A stretch of DNA of 64,000 nt from assembly GCF_024609325.1 (NCBI RefSeq), contig NZ_JANHMQ010000001.1, forward strand, positions 1,488,001 through 1,552,000, read 5' to 3'. The stretch is from Geothrix fuzhouensis. GTDB taxonomy: Bacteria; Acidobacteriota; Holophagae; Holophagales; Holophagaceae. Within the stretch, counting starts at the first letter, position 1; the number at the start of each line of letters is the position of its first letter. The position numbers were made by a program, and so were the translations under genes. The notes beneath the pieces are model-generated. The model saw nothing but the letters and a program-made list of their open reading frames with translations, ran no database searches and was not told the origin of the DNA. Positions 7,829 through 20,861 of the stretch are shown here, one piece after another.

Positions 7829-10800
7829 ATGCGCACCCTCGACCTGAGCGATTCCCGCATCCTCGACCAGTCGCTGGTGGTGAGCGCCAGCGCGGGCTCC
7901 GGCAAGACCTTCACCCTCACGGTGCTGGTCACGGCCCGGCTGGGCCGTGGGGACATCCGCCCCTGGGAGATCCTGGCCACCACCTTCAGCGAGACCTCAG
8001 CAGCAGATCTGCGCGAGCGGCTGCTGCGCCCCCTGGACCTGCTGTCCGCCCTGGATGAGGCCGCCTGGCAGCACCTGCTGCCGCACCTCGACGCGCCCGT
8101 GGCCAAGGACCTCGAAGCCATCCTCAAGGACCTGCCCAGCATCCAGTACCTGAAAAAATCAGCTGGGGAGGTGGCCCAAGCCGCCGCGCACTGGCCGGGT
8201 GCGCACTGGGTCGGCTCGCCCGCCAAGGCCCGCGCGTACTGGCGCCGCGTGCGACGAGAAGCCGAGCTGCTGCAGGTGTCCACCATCCACAGCCTGGCCA
8301 TGCGTGTGCTGAGCAAGGGCGAGGGCAGTAACGACACCATTCTCGATGTGCGCCATCCCTCCCTGCTGCGGCTGCTGCGACTGACGGTGCGCGAAGCCCT
8401 GACACTGCCCGCCGGCCATGCTGATGAGGTGCCCGCCCGGTTGCTGCTGGCCTGGGTCGAGCAGAACTGGGAGGAACTTTCGCAGGGCTTCGACAACCAC
8501 CTGGATGCCCTTGGGCACCTGAAGGGTGAAGACCCAAGCCACCACCGCGACGCGCTGACCCGTGCCGTGGTTGCAGCCCGAACCGCGTTGGCGCCCTTCG
8601 CCACGGATCCTGAGCTGGCCAAGCACCCCAGCGGCAAGGGCCTCCACAACTTCAAGAAGGAGAACCTTCTCCCGGTTCCCCTGGACGGCGCAGACCTGCA
8701 GACGAACCTGCGCTGGGCTCAGGCCCAGAGCGGGCGCGTGTCGAATCCGCCCCCGGCCTATTACTCCGACGCTTTTTGCGATGCGATGACAACCCTCAAG
8801 CCAGTGGTCACCGCGCTGGAAGCCTGGCTGCGCTGCCTGCTGGTGAACGCACTCCAGAGCTTTGAGGCTGAGAAGCAGGCCCAGGGGTTGGCCACTTTCG
8901 GTGACCTGGTCCGCAAGGCCTTGGACAGCCTCAAGACTCACGGAGTGGAAACGCCCGCGCCCAAGCTGCTCCTGGTGGACGAGTACCAGGACACGTCCAA
9001 AGTGCAAGATGCCTTCCTGGAGGCCCTCGGCGCTGAGCGCATGGTGCGTGTGGGCGACGTGAAACAGGCCATCTATGGCTTCCGTGGCGGCGATCCCGAC
9101 CTGCTGCGGGATCGTCTGACCGCAGCAGGAGAGGGCGCCTTCCGCCTCGCGTCCAACTTCCGCTCCACCCCCGAGATCGTGTCTCTGGCCAACACCTATG
9201 TGGACCAGGTCTGGCCGTTGCTGGATCCCACGGTCGGCGACCTTGACGGTGCCCAGGAACCCATTACCCCATCCGGGCCTCCGGCGGGGTTGGTCCGCAC
9301 GCCTGCGCCATCGACCTCGGGTGACCTACCGGCCCTGGCGGATTGGATCTCGGGCCTCTCCCGGGAGGCCGGCTGGACCAAGTCCCTCGGCGCTCCCATG
9401 AAGACCGGCAGCCGCACCCGGGCGCTTCTGCTCAAGCAGCGCACGCGCCTGCCGAGCCTCCTCCAGCGCCTCAAGGCCAAAGGAATCCAACCCTACGTGG
9501 TAGCCAAGGAGGGATTCTGGGACAGCCCCGGCGTGCGGCTCATCCTGGCGGCCCTGGAGGCCGTGGCACACCCCGAGCGACCCATCCCCTGTGCGGCGTT
9601 GCTACGCCAAGTGGTGGGCATGACCGATAGCGAAATGGCGTCCCTGGCCCAGGGCAGCGAAGGCCGTCCTGGACTGCCCGGCCTGGGTCACCTGGATCCC
9701 GAGCTGCTGCCGGAGGCACACCAAGATCTCGTCCGTTTCCTCATCGAGCTGCGGCAGGCCTCCACCCAGACCATCGCAGGCCGCTTGCTGCGACAGGGAG
9801 CCGTACTTCAGGCCATTGCAGCCCTGGAGGTGCATGGTTCGCTGGAGCCCCTGCGGGCACGGCGCAACTTGGCCGGACTGCTTGCCAAGTTGCAGGACCT
9901 GCCCGCCAGCCCCTCCGTGGCCTACGCCCTGCTGGATGACGAGCGGAACGGCCTGGAGCGAGGCGACCTGCCTGCCTCCGTCGAAGACGCGGACCTGCTC
10001 ATCCAGACCGCCCATGGCAGCAAGGGCCTCGAGTATGACGACGTGATCCTCCCCCTGCTCAACGTGAATCCGCGCAGTTTCAGAAAGGGAGACCTCCGCA
10101 CCCAGCCCGAGACCGGCGAGCTGCTGCTCGCCTGGAAGCTTGGGAAATTCACTGGGCGCGCCTACGACGACCTCAAGCCCCTGGTGGAATCCAAACAGAA
10201 GCGCGACGAACTCAACCTGCTCTATGTGGCCCTCACGCGGGCCAAGGGGCGCCTCTGCCTGCTGCTGCAGGAGCCAAAGGATCCCAAAGAGCCCAAGCCT
10301 CCCAGCGAATTCAAGACCTGGGCGAAGTGGGGGCAGGTCCTGGCTAGCGCGCACCCGGACTGGAAAGTACTGACTGATGCACCGACGCCGGAACCCTTGC
10401 CGATTCGGGTCATCTTCACGCCGGACTCACCGCCTGTGCGAACGGCCCTGGCTGACATCACCGTGCCCCCCGACGCCCATGAGGATCTTCCCGGCGACAC
10501 CCGCAGCAAGGCCCGCCAGGAGGGTGAAGCCATGCATGCCTTCCTCCGGGATCTCCTGGTGCGCTGGGAGGAACCAGAAGCCTTCCAGGCCTGCCTCGAC
10601 AGCGCCCCGCCTGTGGTTCACGCCCGCGAGAACGCGCTGCGCTTCCTGGAGCAATTCGAGGCCAAGGGCTGGCGCCACCTCCGTCGTCGCACGGAGTTGC
10701 CCCTCGCGGGCGCAGCCAGCAGTGGCGGGCTTGGTCGCGCGGACCTCGTCGTCTGGGGAGAGGACTGCATCCACCTCCTGGACTTCAAGCACTCCAAGAG

Positions 10801-15199: not shown

Positions 15200-15421
15200 T
15201 CATTTCCCCAGATATCGCTTCACGTCCTCGACCATGGGGCCCACGGCCATGACGGCTTCGGCGATCTTCATGCGGGAGACACTGAAGTAGATAGCCCAAT
15301 CGCGCAGCTCGTAGGGCTCATGGACGTTGATCCATTCCTGCTTCTCAGAGCCGCGGGCTTCCAGGTTTTCAGGCACAAATCCTCCCAGGGATGAGCGTGG
15401 CGCGATTGCGCGGGTCTCCAT
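15200..15421 (-). CDS. DUF3606 small protein
   Basis: 73 aa. The C-terminal 50 residues read INVHEPYELRDWAIYFSVS followed by a helix and VGPMVEDVKRYLG, the pattern of DUF3606: a conserved I-N-V-x-E-x-Y-E-x-R-x-W and a closing A-V-x-x-V-G. Function unknown. The ATG at 15421 has GGAGG 6 nt upstream, so the longer open frame reaching to 15625 is not used. It sits 128 nt downstream of LanB on the same strand and could be read from the same promoter. DUF3606 proteins are common in unrelated contexts, so no role in peptide modification is implied. Confidence 0.8.
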   Translation of the reverse strand: METRAIAPRSSLGGFVPENLEARGSEKQEWINVHEPYELRDWAIYFSVSRMKIAEAVMAVGPMVEDVKRYLGK

Positions 15422-15549: not shown

Positions 15550-18500
15550 TCAGAGGGCCGAGTGTCGAGACAGGCGTGCGAGGTGGGAGTCGTACAGACG
15601 GGTCAGAAATTCCATGAGGACCCATTCGTTTTCCCGGGGGTTGGCCCGTAGCAGGCGGTTGAGGTGCATGTGCGCCAGGCTGCTGGCGAGACGCTCGAGG
15701 CCCTCCTGCAGCAGACCCTGGTCGAAGGCTTCCCGCAACCGCGACAGGCCGCCGAGTTCGGGGGCGCAGGGCGAACCCAGCGGCAAGGGAAATCCTGCGG
15801 CCAGTTCCTTCCGCAGGTTCCTGAACTTCGCGCCGATCTGCGCGCTCATGGGTCCGGTGTCGCCGAACTCCTTCCGGAAGCTATCCCGGGTGGCCTGGGC
15901 CAGCGCTTCGCGCGCCCGGGGGCTCAGGCCCAGGGCCGCCCAGATCGCATCCACATCGCGGAGACCGGCGCGCCAGCGCTCCTCCTGCGTCTGGCCGGCC
16001 GCGAGGCGGGTCAGGGTCCGTTGGCTGTCGGCCCAGAACCACGCCTCGGCCAAAGAGAAGCCAACTGGCCCGCCGTAGCGCTCGACTTCCGGCTCGAAGG
16101 TATCCACCTGCCATTTCCAGAGCAGCCCGGCGGCCCGGTAGGGTTCCAGGTGCTGGTGGAGCCGAGGGAGCAGTTCCGCGAGCAGGTGCCCGGGATGGCC
16201 ATGGAAGCGGAGGCGGAGGTGGGGCTCGGGATCGCGGTACCGGATGAAGTGCCAGCGGTCCCAAAGGCCCTGCACGTGCGTCAGGCGGAGCAGCGGATCC
16301 AGTTCCACCAGCAGCCGGTCCGCGCTGGTCGGGCCGCAGTAGAGCTTGAGATAGAGCCACTCCGAACCGGGCGGATAGGCCCGGACCGCGGGCACCTGGG
16401 CCAGCGATGAGAAGGCCAACGGCGGGAGGGCCGGCGCCCCGGATTGACGCTGTGTCAGCGCCTCGAACGGGATGACCAGCTCGTGGGCGAACCGGCCCTC
16501 CGGCGCCGTCACCAGGGCTTGATCGGGAGGCGGGAAACATTCTGTTAGGAGGAAGCCCGAGCGCTGGGCCACGAGGTGGTGCAGCGTCTCCACCCAGAGC
16601 GCCTGGTCGAGGTCCACCAGCAGGCTGTTGTCGGCATCGGTGAGCGTGACGAACCTGGGCAGGCGCCGCCGTTCCCGCAGGGACTGGAAGGCGCCCCAGG
16701 CCCCGCCGCCGGAACCCGCCAGGGCCGCTTTCAGTTCCCGGGCTTCGATCCGCCAGCGCGCCTTGCTGAGGACGTGGCGCCCGCGGGTGACGCGCGGAAG
16801 GAACGGCTGGTCGGCCAGGGCCCCCCAGGACCATCCGCCGGAGCGCCCGTCCTGGTCCTGCAGATGCGCCAGGAACCGGTAGACCACGGGGCCGCGGGTG
16901 AAGTTGTGCGCCGAAGACAGGCGGGGGAGGACCTCGCGCCCCAGCCGCGCCGAGGCTAGCAGCACGCGCTGGCCGCGCACAGTCAGGCGCAGGTCCGAGG
17001 GGGGGAGCGTGTGCGTGGACGCCACGCCGGAGGTGGCGAGAAAGGGGATCTCGTAGTCCCGCAGGGCGGGTCGGGCCAGGACGTTGCCCATCCGGCCCTC
17101 GGGCACATGGACCACTTCGGCGAACACGGCCTCGGGGCGCGCGTCCTCCTCGGTCCGCAGGTGACGATGCAAGGCGGCTTTCAGGACGGGATCCCCGGAG
17201 GCGAAGCGCCCCAGCCACCGCGCGGCCGTGGGGCCCGAATGGTGCTCCATCCAGAACTGGAACTCGCCCCGGTCCAGGGCGGCGGGGCTGGCGGCCGCCA
17301 GGCTGGTCAACGCGGCGAAGGAAGCGGGAAAGGGCTGCGGATCCGGGTTGGCGAGGGCTTCCACATCGGCGTCGGTCAGGTCCCAGACCGGCGTTCCCTG
17401 CCACCGGGACAGCTGCGCGAGGAGGAACCGGTCCCGCTGGGTGAGCCCGGGCGCAGGAGTGGCGGTCTGCAAGGGCAAGTCCTCCAGCAAGGAGCCCTCC
17501 AGCGGGGGCGCCCCGTCGAACCCGATCCCGCTTTCCTCGTCCAGCACCTCCAGCAGCGGCAGCCAGCGTGTTCCGTAACGCTCGGTGAAGGCCGCCCGAA
17601 ACCGTTCCATGGGACCCTCCGGGCGCGGCGGGGCCAGGCGACGCAGCGTTTCGGCACCCTCTTCCAGAACGCGACGAACCACCGGCGACAGGGTCAGCTC
17701 GGCGGCCGGGCGGAAGAGGTCCACCTGGAGGACATCCCGGGTGTCTGTGGGCAGGCCCAGCTCGGCCAAGGACGCCACCAGGCTGGGATGCCCGTCCGGG
17801 TGTGCCCCGACGGGGGCCTCCCGCAGCCGGTCCAGGTCCAGGCCCAGCTTCACCAGGGGCTCAGCCCGTGGGGCGGTACTCGGATCGGCCTGCAGGGTGG
17901 TGATCACGTGGCCGAGGGGATCGGGACTGGTCAGCGGGGGGTGGAGCTCCGCGCCAAGGAGCTGCGCCTGGATGATTTGCTCCAGAAAGGCTCGGGCCTC
18001 GGCCGGCGGGACCTGCAGGTGCTGGGCCAGGCTCGTCGTCAGGTCGTCCAGACGGACCCCCGGTGCCGCCTGCTGCAGTGCGAAGTCGAGATGGGGGGTG
18101 GCTTCCACCGCCTCCAGGTGGTAGGTGCGCCCCATTCCGGGCTGATCCCTGGATTCGAGATACCGATACCAGCCTGCGCAGGCGTAAATGCTGGAATTGG
18201 GCCGGTAACGCAGGCGCGACCGCACCTCCGAATCACCCTCCAGCTGGTTCACCAGGGTTTCCAGGACGCCCCAGTCGAGCCGCACCGCCTTGCGGCAGGC
18301 CTCCCAGGGCCCCAGGGACAACCGGCTCGCGGGCCCCCAGGCGCCCGTGGTTACTCCAGCAAAAAGACCAAAGGGCGTCGCGCGGTGGCTCATCCGGCTG
18401 AGGTATTTCACCAGGGCCCGCTCCACACTCCGGGCCACGGCGATTTCCAGGGTGCCTTCCAGCCAGGCATCCACGCGAAAGGCCAGATCCGGAGACGCAA

Positions 18501-18663
18501 GGGCCAAAGCTTCCCGCACAGCGTCGCGACGGGTCAGCTCCTGTAGGGTCAGGCGCAAGCCCCCCGGGTCAGATGGCTGCTCGGGGATGAGCGCGTCCAG
18601 AGGCAGGCTCGGGCTGCGAAGCACAAAGAAGTCAGCGGTTTGGCAGGTCGGCTGCGGAGGCAT
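15550..18663 (-). CDS. Full-length lantibiotic dehydratase (LanB) with thiopeptide-type C-terminal domain
   Basis: 1037 aa. The N-terminal glutamylation domain carries YLSRMSHRATPFGLFAG, where R90, R94 and T96 have the spacing of NisB R83, R87 and T89. The C-terminal elimination (SpaB_C) domain carries WHFIRYRDPEPHLRLRF, YGGPVGF..AEAWFWADS and HMHLNRLL (from about 998), with the expected Arg and His residues. LanB uses Glu-tRNA to glutamylate Ser/Thr of a precursor peptide and eliminates glutamate to give Dha/Dhb. Being full length, it is not one of the small LanB-like aminoacyl ligases. No LanC, LanT or LanP gene is near. A candidate substrate is encoded divergently at 18862. The ribosome site is weak. 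DUF3606 lies downstream on the same strand. Confidence 0.92.
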   Translation of the reverse strand: MPPQPTCQTADFFVLRSPSLPLDALIPEQPSDPGGLRLTLQELTRRDAVREALALASPDLAFRVDAWLEGTLEIAVARSVERALVKYLSRMSHRATPFGLFAGVTTGAWGPASRLSLGPWEACRKAVRLDWGVLETLVNQLEGDSEVRSRLRYRPNSSIYACAGWYRYLESRDQPGMGRTYHLEAVEATPHLDFALQQAAPGVRLDDLTTSLAQHLQVPPAEARAFLEQIIQAQLLGAELHPPLTSPDPLGHVITTLQADPSTAPRAEPLVKLGLDLDRLREAPVGAHPDGHPSLVASLAELGLPTDTRDVLQVDLFRPAAELTLSPVVRRVLEEGAETLRRLAPPRPEGPMERFRAAFTERYGTRWLPLLEVLDEESGIGFDGAPPLEGSLLEDLPLQTATPAPGLTQRDRFLLAQLSRWQGTPVWDLTDADVEALANPDPQPFPASFAALTSLAAASPAALDRGEFQFWMEHHSGPTAARWLGRFASGDPVLKAALHRHLRTEEDARPEAVFAEVVHVPEGRMGNVLARPALRDYEIPFLATSGVASTHTLPPSDLRLTVRGQRVLLASARLGREVLPRLSSAHNFTRGPVVYRFLAHLQDQDGRSGGWSWGALADQPFLPRVTRGRHVLSKARWRIEARELKAALAGSGGGAWGAFQSLRERRRLPRFVTLTDADNSLLVDLDQALWVETLHHLVAQRSGFLLTECFPPPDQALVTAPEGRFAHELVIPFEALTQRQSGAPALPPLAFSSLAQVPAVRAYPPGSEWLYLKLYCGPTSADRLLVELDPLLRLTHVQGLWDRWHFIRYRDPEPHLRLRFHGHPGHLLAELLPRLHQHLEPYRAAGLLWKWQVDTFEPEVERYGGPVGFSLAEAWFWADSQRTLTRLAAGQTQEERWRAGLRDVDAIWAALGLSPRAREALAQATRDSFRKEFGDTGPMSAQIGAKFRNLRKELAAGFPLPLGSPCAPELGGLSRLREAFDQGLLQEGLERLASSLAHMHLNRLLRANPRENEWVLMEFLTRLYDSHLARLSRHSAL

Positions 18664-18861
18664 GGACAGGCTGCTTTCTCAGGGAGGCCATTCAGGACAA
18701 CACGTCCCGATCGAGTGGACCATCGAACCCCTGAATGGTGGCACTTGGGGGGCTCAACGGTTGGAGGTGTGTTTACATACCGTTCATGGAAATCCATTGG
18801 CTGGCGTTTAGGTTGGGCTCACAAACAAGGTCGCGCCCCGCGGCGTTACCTGGGAGTTCCC
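18664..18861. promoter_or_regulatory. Divergent promoter region between LanB and the candidate precursor
   Basis: 198-nt region serving two divergent genes. At 18779-18787, ACCGTTCAT fits the LytTR/AlgR-type consensus [TA][AC][CA]GTTN[AG][TG] at every position. A degenerate copy, GGCGTTTAG, lies at 18803-18811, 24 nt start to start, slightly wider than the usual 21-22. A perfect inverted repeat ATGGA-AA-TCCAT overlaps the first box (18786-18797). A LytTR-domain regulator is encoded 1.3 kb away, so these are plausible binding sites. No clear -35/-10 pair was found. Confidence 0.4.
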
Positions 18862-19020
18862 ATGAACACCACCCTTTCCTTCCGCAAGGAATCCATTCAG
18901 CGCTCGAGCCAGGCCAGCCAAGCAGCGAACCATCCCGTTGGATTCACCGAGGCCCAAGGTTCCAAGCATGCCCGTGACCACCGGCCGATCACCCTCACCA
19001 CCACCCTCACCATTCTCTGA
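18862..19020 (+). CDS. Candidate Cys-free LanB substrate (RiPP precursor peptide)
   Basis: 52 codons. The ATG is preceded by GGGAG with 5-nt spacing. The N-terminus, TLSFRKESIQ (residues 4-13), resembles the L-x-L-x-K-E-[TS]-I leader pattern I associate with class I lanthipeptide precursors of Bacteroidetes and relatives. A hydrophilic middle (about 14-42) follows. The last ten residues are ITLTTTLTIL, with Thr at 44, 46, 47, 48 and 50. There is no Cys, so LanB could make dehydrobutyrines but no lanthionine ring. The gene is divergent from lanB and 40 nt upstream of the histidine kinase. There is no GG or obvious peptidase site; Pro42 just before the Thr-rich tail is one possible cut. Identification rests on pattern and position only. 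Confidence 0.55.
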   Translation: MNTTLSFRKESIQRSSQASQAANHPVGFTEAQGSKHARDHRPITLTTTLTIL

Positions 19021-19060
19021 AGGTCAGCCTGGGTTCGCCGAGTCCAGGGCTGGAGGTGTC

Positions 19061-20149
19061 ATGGATTCGGCGAACCCCTGGAATTCTCTGTTCCCGTTAG
19101 CCAAAAACTGGCGAGTTATCGGAGTCTGCTATTCACTCTGGGCTCTCTTCCTTCTGCACGACCAATGGGCCTCCAACCGGACCGGTTCCGGGTGGATATG
19201 GGCCAGCGCCTTTTCCTCACCGCTCACTCACATCGGGGCTTTCGCATTCCTGGCGCCATTACCCTGGGTTTTGCCCCGACGGCTTCCCTCTCCCTGGAAC
19301 TTCATTCTAGGGTTCGCGTTATCGGTGGTCACCTGTGGACTGGTCTCAGCACTGCTTCCCATCATCGATGCTTGGTTCCTTACTCATGGGAATTTCAAAT
19401 TCGACCTGGGTAAGCTCCTGCAGCTATACATCTCACTCGTGGGGCCAGCCATGATGGTCGTGGGAGGACTGGTCGCGGCCCGGGCGCGCTCGGAGGAGCT
19501 TCGGGAGGCTTCCCAGGCGGAAGCCCAGGTCGCCAAGAATCGGCTGCTCCAGAGCCAGATCCACCCGCACGTACTGTTCAACGCGTTGAATGGCCTGGCT
19601 GAGCTCGTCCACAAGGACGCCAGGGCCGCCGAGACGGCCATCCGGCACCTTTCCGACCTGCTCCGGCGCATCCTCGTGGCGTCTGAGCACATGCGCCTGC
19701 CCCTCGGGGAAGAACGGATGATCGTCGCGGACTACCTGGCCCTCGAGTCCATCCGGCTGGGAAACCGGCTCCGGATCACCTGGGAATGGGACGAGGATCT
19801 GGACTCGATCGAGGTCCCCCCCCTGCTCTTCCAGCCCCTGGTGGAAAATGCCATCAAGCATGGCATCGCGCCCAGCATCCCCGGCGGCGACCTGATCCTC
19901 CGGGCCCGGGCCAAGGATGGGGCGATCTTCCTGGAAGTCTGGAATTCGGGGCAGCCCTTCCCGATCAATGGCGTCAGCAGTGGCATTGGCATTGGCGTGA
20001 AGAACCTGCGCTCGCGGCTGGCCCTGCATTTCGGCGGCGGCGCCCGGCTATCCATCGGCCCCTCCGGCCAAGGCACGCTCGCCTGCATTCGTTTCGAGGC
20101 AACCCAAGTAGAATTCAGTCATGAACCAGCTGCAGGCCCTGGTAGTTGA
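19061..20149 (+). CDS. LytS-type sensor histidine kinase
   Basis: 362 aa. Four predicted membrane helices (about 19-36, 55-72, 80-105, 119-141) precede a His_kinase domain with SQIHPHVLFNALN, where H170 aligns with the phospho-acceptor of the usual Q-I-N-P-H-F-L-F-N box; the Asn of that box is His here. A HATPase domain follows with PLVENAIKHG (N box) and GIGIGVKNLRSRL (G box). It should phosphorylate the LytTR regulator encoded next. The ATG at 19061 is preceded by GGAGG; the longer frame from 18938 overlaps the candidate precursor and is rejected. The 3' end overlaps the regulator gene by 29 nt. No extracellular sensor domain is visible, so the membrane helices may do the sensing. Confidence 0.92.
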   Translation: MDSANPWNSLFPLAKNWRVIGVCYSLWALFLLHDQWASNRTGSGWIWASAFSSPLTHIGAFAFLAPLPWVLPRRLPSPWNFILGFALSVVTCGLVSALLPIIDAWFLTHGNFKFDLGKLLQLYISLVGPAMMVVGGLVAARARSEELREASQAEAQVAKNRLLQSQIHPHVLFNALNGLAELVHKDARAAETAIRHLSDLLRRILVASEHMRLPLGEERMIVADYLALESIRLGNRLRITWEWDEDLDSIEVPPLLFQPLVENAIKHGIAPSIPGGDLILRARAKDGAIFLEVWNSGQPFPINGVSSGIGIGVKNLRSRLALHFGGGARLSIGPSGQGTLACIRFEATQVEFSHEPAAGPGS

Positions 20150-20861
20150 CGACGAGCCGCTGGCACGGGAGCGGCTTTCCCGGTTACTCAAAGAAGCTGG
20201 CTGCGAGGTCGTGGGTGAGCTGGGCGACGGCGTGGCCCTGCTCCATTGGCTGAAGGAGCCTGGGGCGGTCGACGTCATCTTCCTGGACATCCAGATGCCC
20301 GGCCTCAGCGGGCTGGAAGTGCTGGCCGAGGTGTCCGATTGTCCCCCCGTGGTCTTCGTGACGGCCTTCTCCTCCTACGCGGTGCAGGCCTTCGAACTTG
20401 CCGCCGCGGACTACCTGCTGAAGCCGGTGTTCGAGGATCGCCTGGCCAAATGCCTGCAGCGCCTGCGGGATCGCCTGATCCGGCCCCTCAGCCCCACCGA
20501 GCTGAAGACGCTGCTGCCGCCGCCCATCCGCTTCCCCATCCGCGCCGGGGATGGGGAGGTCTACATGGAATTGGAACTGGTCACCCACTTCGAGCTGGAG
20601 AGCGATCGCATCTGGGCTTGCCGAGGCCAGAACCGCTATTTGACGCGCTGGGCCACCCTGGCGGAAGTGGAACAGTCCTTCCCGGACGACGGCATGCTCC
20701 GCATCCAGCGCCATCTGCTGTTGCGCCCCCGCATGGTCAAGGGGATCCGGCCGACCACCGTGGGGCGGATCAAGGTCCTGGTCGCGCCCAATGTGGAACT
20801 GGTCGTCAGCCGCGCCATGACCCCCCGGACGAAAGAATGCGTCCGGACCGGACGGCTTTGA
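20121..20861 (+). CDS. LytTR-family response regulator
   Basis: 246 aa. The receiver domain has the acidic pair D10/D11 in VVDDEPLAR, phospho-acceptor D56 in FLDIQMPG, T81 and K101 in DYLLKP. A C-terminal LytTR-like DNA-binding domain begins near residue 140 and includes CRGQNRYLTRW and MLRIQRHLLLRPRMV. The second is an atypical form of the R-I-H-R-S-x-x-V-N signature of LytTR. It forms a cognate pair with the overlapping LytS-type kinase. The nearest likely targets are the divergent lanB/precursor promoter and its own operon, though many such pairs act elsewhere. Confidence 0.92.
   Translation: MNQLQALVVDDEPLARERLSRLLKEAGCEVVGELGDGVALLHWLKEPGAVDVIFLDIQMPGLSGLEVLAEVSDCPPVVFVTAFSSYAVQAFELAAADYLLKPVFEDRLAKCLQRLRDRLIRPLSPTELKTLLPPPIRFPIRAGDGEVYMELELVTHFELESDRIWACRGQNRYLTRWATLAEVEQSFPDDGMLRIQRHLLLRPRMVKGIRPTTVGRIKVLVAPNVELVVSRAMTPRTKECVRTGRL

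Follow-up and report, generated by a model that had tools for sequence, protein, structure and literature searches.

The nisin-type class I gene set comprises LanA, LanB, LanC, and LanT, often together with LanRK. Among two-component systems, BtsSR, AlgZR, and the plantaricin regulators are of the LytS/LytTR type. A published survey of class I lanthipeptides starts its mining from LanC and describes LxLxKx5L as the Bacteroidetes class I leader (PMC7268733); the accessible part of a further source reports no LanB in its Bacteroidales genomes (PMC10352776). Clusters lacking both LanC and Cys have been described for the pearlins and pyritides, which use short or truncated LanBs (PMC11002830), and dehydration is combined with azoles by YcaO plus split LanB or LanM-type enzymes (PMC10676384). 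One source describes a LanM-like protein that works as an effector in Agr signalling, and states that lanthipeptides can have a signal function (PMC10301443). The sites of LytTR regulators consist of two repeats of 9-11 nt with 11-13 nt between them (PMC4847170). These sources were available only in part, and the comparisons made with them here are limited to those parts.

Within the window (the whole stretch of DNA analysed, 64,000 nucleotides), a 52-residue ORF, a divergent LanB gene, a LytS-type histidine kinase gene, and a LytTR regulator gene form a four-gene module found in the Holophagaceae (Geothrix and kin; Table 1). We propose, with a probability of roughly 0.77, that the ORF product is a RiPP precursor on which this divergent full-length LanB acts, which would yield a linear peptide rich in dehydrobutyrine (Dhb), with expression from a promoter presumed to be under the LytTR regulator. 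The original prediction had described the ORF as a RiPP precursor without rings, a view that is supported here, the chemistry being inferred; the LanB, absent from that prediction, provides the strongest support. In the general sense the module meets the criterion for a RiPP, an encoded precursor with a leader and a variable core beside a modifying enzyme.

Like class I lanthipeptide clusters, the module has a full-length two-domain LanB, a leader-core precursor, and a two-component system nearby, but it differs in having no Cys, no LanC traced in the genome, and no conserved LanT or LanP, in the LytS/LytTR type of its pair, and in its single divergent precursor. Its leader, L-x-[FL]-x-K-E-[ST]-[IL], is similar to the Bacteroidetes type (PMC7268733), and LanC clusters of relatives (L054, L057, L058) pair similar leaders with Cys-containing cores; however, the later Leu of LxLxKx5L is Ser in the module, and there is neither a Gly-Gly end nor, as far as was found, a C39 peptidase. 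The module shares with the pearlins and pyritides a member of the LanB superfamily without LanC and a Cys-free precursor, whereas its LanB is full-length with intact elimination residues and its genome has no stand-alone PF14028 protein. Thiopeptides, goadsporin, and dehydrazoles also carry dehydroamino acids without lanthionine, but in these a YcaO forms azoles alongside split LanB or LanM-type dehydratases, and searches of the window's genome found no YcaO. LytS/LytTR systems such as YpdAB (PMC4847170) have the same PF06580 kinase, LytTR regulator, and direct repeat of 21-22 bp, although here the pair accompanies a LanB and the peptide presumed to be its substrate. In joining a full-length LanB, a Cys-free substrate, and a two-component system, with no further known RiPP enzyme found, the module matches none of the compared systems in full, as far as the partial sources allow, and looks like a new variant. 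In PMC searches we found no report of it, nor any that pairs Geothrix with a lanthipeptide; most subscription journals are outside that coverage. Mining that begins with LanC, as in the available part of the survey above, is blind to LanC-less modules of this type, and a full-length LanB with a Cys-free natural substrate raises the question of what purpose dehydration alone would serve.

Table 1. Features of the module and its surroundings in the window.
Feature	Coordinates	Strand	Basis or remark
DUF3606 gene downstream of lanB, module membership uncertain	15200..15388	-	PF12244, 3.5e-12
Class I lantibiotic dehydratase (LanB) of full length, 1037 aa, transcribed divergently; putative modifying enzyme	15550..18663	-	PF04738 and PF14028; catalytic residues conserved
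Box 1, GAATGGT in the window (consensus GAACGGT), first half of direct repeat	18733..18739	-	Read by eye; missed by one-mismatch pattern
Box 2, AACGGTT, the repeat's other half; putative site for the LytTR regulator	18756..18762	-	Conserved position
Box 3, ATACCGTTCATGG, opposite orientation	18777..18789	+	Conserved position
Ribosome binding site GGGAG	18852..18856	+	5 nt 5' of the ATG; conserved ACCTgGGAG directly before the start codon
Precursor peptide gene, 52 aa, Cys-free	18862..19020	+	Alignment of 30 intact orthologs; leader under the strongest constraint at the protein level
Leader part, residues 1-19 MNTTLSFRKESIQRSSQAS, nearly fixed	18862..18918	+	Ortholog alignment
Thr-rich tail ITLTTTLTIL, presumed dehydration sites	18988..19017	+	Thr-rich and Cys-free in orthologs
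LytS-type sensor histidine kinase (PF06580)	19061..20149	+	Starts 40 nt past the precursor stop
LytTR-type response regulator	20121..20861	+	Overlaps the kinase gene

The ORF runs from an ATG to a TGA and encodes MNTTLSFRKESIQRSSQASQAANHPVGFTEAQGSKHARDHRPITLTTTLTIL. That it would be coding, with a good ribosome site and a tail holding five Thr in its last ten residues in a peptide without Cys, had been predicted from the window alone, and all of this holds; at the Thr background of 5.0% in five neighbouring proteins, at least five Thr in ten residues has a p of ~6e-5. Coding is borne out by 30 intact orthologs aligned from 29 genomes, all in the same position upstream of the kinase gene, and by their substitutions. 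As uncorrected proportions over all pairs (G024 and G059 excluded), pN and pS are 0.160 and 0.407 in the leader, 0.434 and 0.544 in the middle, and 0.428 and 0.530 in the tail. In each part pS is higher than pN, with the widest gap in the leader; as judged from this alignment, the constraint is at the level of the protein. Conservation and substitution pattern together rule out a chance ORF. A longer frame started by TTG (18640-19020) is also mechanically open over the precursor; as far as sequence can tell, the region 5' of the ATG is a conserved promoter and not a conserved protein. A search of positions 18600-19150 against Rfam gave nothing at E up to 1.

Across the orthologs the leader is nearly fixed (LSFRKESIQ.SS), with L5, F7, E10, Q13, and S16 invariant in a 16-row alignment, while the middle varies in length and sequence. 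Middle and tail change fast; the tail nevertheless stays Thr-rich: over the 30 orthologs, Thr accounts for 30.5% of the last 14 residues, among which there is no Cys. All but one of these precursors (29 of 30) are free of Cys throughout, the sole Cys lying in the leader of one G004 copy. The original prediction had named an alignment of relatives as its check, and the expected picture, a conserved leader with a variable Thr-rich tail, is what the alignment gives. It had also named broken frames in relatives as the outcome that would refute it, which did not appear: 31 of 32 copies are intact ORFs, and the remaining one, in G024 (a draft, 88%), is open in frame but has lost its ribosome site, start, and about seven codons to a deletion of ~41 bp, beside an intact LanB. 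As to the claim of a lanthipeptide-type leader, LxFxKESI is conserved among the orthologs and resembles the LxLxKE[ST]I leaders of class I; the peptide matches no NCBIfam or Pfam model, however, and a role of this motif in LanB recognition is inferred.

The peptide query, run against 150 related genomes at E up to 0.1, gave matches in 33 genomes, a count that includes the weak match on C23 of G075, which was not inspected. Inspection showed the weak matches in G030, G060, and G132 (the only match of each genome) and on C9 of G006, all with E of 0.04-0.08, to be due to chance, and that on C8 of G004 to be a true second precursor copy; G004 carries the whole module twice (L045, L046), with different precursor tails. 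Beyond the 30 aligned orthologs, the copy without a start in G024 is the 31st, and a divergent copy in G059 is the 32nd (MKPRLVLRKETLHLL...ASITTIWTTPW, L051). The latter lies in the same place but was spotted by eye, the peptide search having missed it, so other divergent copies could be missed elsewhere. A strict leader pattern applied to one genome per species (84,980 species) gave 68 matches; a relative is encoded at 19 of these loci, in records that bear the names Geothrix (including campi, oryzisoli, fermentans, paludis, rubra, and terrae), Holophagaceae, or Acidobacteria MAGs. No relative was found in viral contigs. Being compact and conserved and occurring in named strains, for example Geothrix fermentans DSM 14018 (L087), the module lends itself to direct testing.

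The LanB gene starts 198 bp from the precursor ORF on the opposite strand, and its product is similar to MibB, MadB, and NisB. Lant_dehydr_N (PF04738) covers residues 46-694 at 3.6e-161 and Lant_dehydr_C, the elimination domain (PF14028), covers residues 769-1024 at 4e-60; by these matches the enzyme is complete, with both glutamylation and elimination domains. R90, R94, T96, R817, R819, and R862 of the window LanB align with R83, R87, T89, R784, R786, and R826 of NisB, and these six residues, together with the C-terminal His H998, do not vary across the 30 module LanBs and 7 other LanBs aligned. In NisB the six residues, and likewise H961, are catalytic. The structure model has a mean pLDDT of only 55 on a shallow alignment, and Foldseek adds little beyond the sequence evidence, its top matches being LanBs for the LanB model and histidine kinases for the kinase model.

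In a tree of 37 LanBs (matches >2500 nt; L043, L052, L059, L071, and L095 excluded), the module LanBs form one clade with support of 100/98. The second LanB of G020 (L042) branches next to this clade, so an ordinary class I system may have given rise to the LanC-less type. LanBs of other types occur in G043, G050, G074, and G076. Of 297 sampled genomes of the phylum, 22 have a LanB match at 1e-100; the 7 of these that lie outside the family are 35-42% identical to the window LanB, with surroundings viewed only for G095 and G140. LanC is present at six of the seven non-module LanB loci in the tree, as found with Pfam at L054-L057 and by genome search at L042 (G020) and L058 (G095), and was not established for L053 (G050). 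The L054 locus, in G074, also encodes a C39-peptidase ABC transporter, and candidate Cys-rich precursors with LxLxKETI-like leaders occur at L054, L057, and L058. Two Cys-containing candidates, MKKLELTKETIVPL... and MKKILIERETILPL..., lie on the minus strand at 9048-9248 and 9279-9476 of L054, the LanC cluster of this family member; the core of one holds VITLTTSRNTC.

LanC was searched for in 75 genomes (that of the window, 45 of the same genus, and 29 of the class or phylum), a set that does not cover G047-G076. None was found in the window's genome, and among it and the 45 same-genus genomes LanC occurs only in G020 and G029, beside a second LanB; G066 likewise has LanC at its second, non-module LanB. 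Searches of the window's genome found no C39 peptidase and no YcaO, and its sole PF14028 match lies inside the window LanB, with no stand-alone elimination domain. The assembly is ~97% complete, and these absences are not absolute. As far as this gene content can be trusted, lanthionine cannot form by the class I route, because the peptide has no Cys and no LanC was found in the genome.

Although the usual rings are impossible, the LanB very probably modifies the precursor. We infer that the conserved N-terminal LSFRKESI would act as a recognition leader bound by LanB, which would glutamylate Thr/Ser from glutamyl-tRNA and then eliminate the glutamate, converting several tail threonines to Dhb; neither dehydration nor its sites have a basis other than inference. 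The product would be a linear, hydrophobic, Dhb-rich peptide. Sites other than the tail threonines are possible, since S16 and S19 of the leader are as conserved as these. Dhb is electrophilic, and the enzyme might do something other than tail dehydration, for example if Dhb were trapped by a small-molecule or protein thiol, or if LanB glutamylated without eliminating. Other chemistry is known for short LanBs (PMC11002830, in the part available), but here the elimination-domain residues are invariant and the domain is of full length, and we regard such an outcome as improbable.

The distribution of the precursor ties it to the LanB. We define the family as 77 genomes, namely that of the window, G001-G046 of the same genus, and G047-G076, for which the listing, though incomplete, showed only members of that family. 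Module-type LanBs occur in 32 of the 77: 29 genomes in the tree clade (30 rows) and G002, G021, and G071 with partial genes. The precursor is present in 31 of these 32, the exception being G017, where the contig ends inside the promoter; in G056 precursor and LanB are on separate contigs. Peptide searches of the other 45 family genomes gave no real match, with the caveat that the same search missed the G059 copy. The co-occurrence has a Fisher p of ~1e-20, uncorrected for relatedness. Relatives of the kinase and regulator at ~70% identity occur with neither LanB nor precursor in G033, in G046, and as a second copy in G002, and these loci retain the box 3 promoter block; in G035 a further such relative is truncated where its contig stops. 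Their lack of the ORF indicates that the precursor goes with LanB and not with the kinase, as read from these loci, and rules out a leader ORF of the kinase. The original prediction would have failed had the ORF been a mere feature of the kinase 5' region, an outcome that these three loci exclude.

The ORF might still encode an unmodified regulatory peptide or a leader of the kinase operon, with LanB a bystander. In 27 loci it stops 28-43 nt short of the site that corresponds in the alignment to the window kinase start, and it is intact in G002, a genome of two contigs listed as 100% complete whose LanB is open for only ~200 LanB-like residues. This reading seems to us very unlikely, given the absence of the ORF from the three kinase loci without LanB, its presence with LanB in 31 of 32 genomes, and a leader of the LanB-substrate type. 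G002 also counts against our preferred reading of a LanB product, as do the intact LanB beside a precursor without a start in G024 and the lack of a conserved transporter or protease in the module. The reduced LanB of G002 lies at about 7264-8133 of L043, and also at L093, in the genome that has the second kinase/regulator pair without LanB or precursor.

The DUF3606 gene adjoins lanB in 11 of 33 module-LanB loci and lies upstream of the kinase in all three LanB-less loci. This distribution would be consistent with LanB and precursor having been gained or lost together at a single site, in an order not resolved here, and the gene may mark the ancestral site.

Precursor, kinase, and regulator stand head to tail in one locus, as would be expected of a peptide quorum-sensing system: a kinase gene comes after the precursor at every one of the 32 precursor loci and a regulator gene at 31, the one missing being at a contig end. 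The kinase model (mean pLDDT 65, shallow alignment) has four long N-terminal helices and no visible soluble sensor domain; by hydropathy three, not four, clear membrane stretches exceed the threshold. Cys92 of the kinase (window 19334-19336) falls within the third of these helices; 32 of 34 aligned kinases share it (matches >850 nt; L070 and L094 excluded), and the other two have Ser.

The shared promoter was tabulated for 27 loci. Relative to the precursor start codon, box 2 lies at -106 in 26 of them and box 3 at -85 in all 27, and the two halves of the direct repeat, GAACGGT / AACGGTT, are offset by 22 bp in 20 loci and by 21 bp in five. A one-mismatch pattern left box 1 unmatched in two loci, L066 and the window, where GAATGGT can be read by eye with a 22 bp period. 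The repeat meets the LytTR spacing rule (PMC4847170, as given in its accessible part), without binding data, and suggests control by the module's own regulator, whose binding is inferred. In the proposed mechanism the LytTR regulator would bind this repeat and set the expression of precursor, LanB, and itself. A search of the genome for box 3 with one mismatch gave four matches against one for a reversed control, one of the four being that of the window. Elsewhere in the genome the search turned up a single further exact box 3 (C1:946565; L097 1501-1513, outside the window), which lies between two minus-strand ORFs. Neither it nor the two one-mismatch matches shows a precursor or an obvious target, and the idea of a wider regulon was set aside.

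What the modified peptide might do is less certain. Class I LanB products are often antimicrobial, and the product could be a secreted antimicrobial or other effector whose production the two-component system regulates on another cue, in keeping with the fast evolution of middle and tail. We hold this possibility only tentatively: the module loci contain no conserved transporter, protease, or immunity gene (ABC-type ORFs are near only L036 and L037), no C39 peptidase was found in the window's genome, and the tail retains its Thr-rich character. The presence of a two-component system in the module suggests that the dehydropeptide could serve as a signal. Added to its modification by LanB, and not replacing it, the mature peptide may be the ligand (autoinducer) of the adjacent kinase, with the regulator raising precursor and LanB. 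The fixed order precursor-kinase-regulator makes this role attractive, as do the conserved promoter repeat, the long N-terminal helices of the kinase (at modest model confidence), and lanthipeptides that signal for their own production (PMC10301443, in the part available). We offer it only tentatively, because three kinase and regulator loci without precursor and LanB retain part of the same promoter, so that the pair can sense something else, because neither exporter nor processing enzyme, which a peptide quorum-sensing system would be expected to have in its locus, is conserved in the module, and because in G002 precursor and kinase persist beside a broken LanB.

A more speculative extension is a minimal RiPP signalling circuit, in which a linear Dhb-rich peptide made by LanB would, without a dedicated exporter, be read in or at the membrane by the LytS-type kinase, with LytTR feedback on precursor and LanB. 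Its extreme form, in which the electrophilic peptide would react with Cys92 of the kinase and become a covalent ligand, is not excluded, but the kinases of LanB-less loci carry the same Cys. In G020 and G029 the kinase genes (L041, L060) stop at an in-frame TGA roughly ten codons short of the aligned end, so that the C-terminus is slightly shorter.
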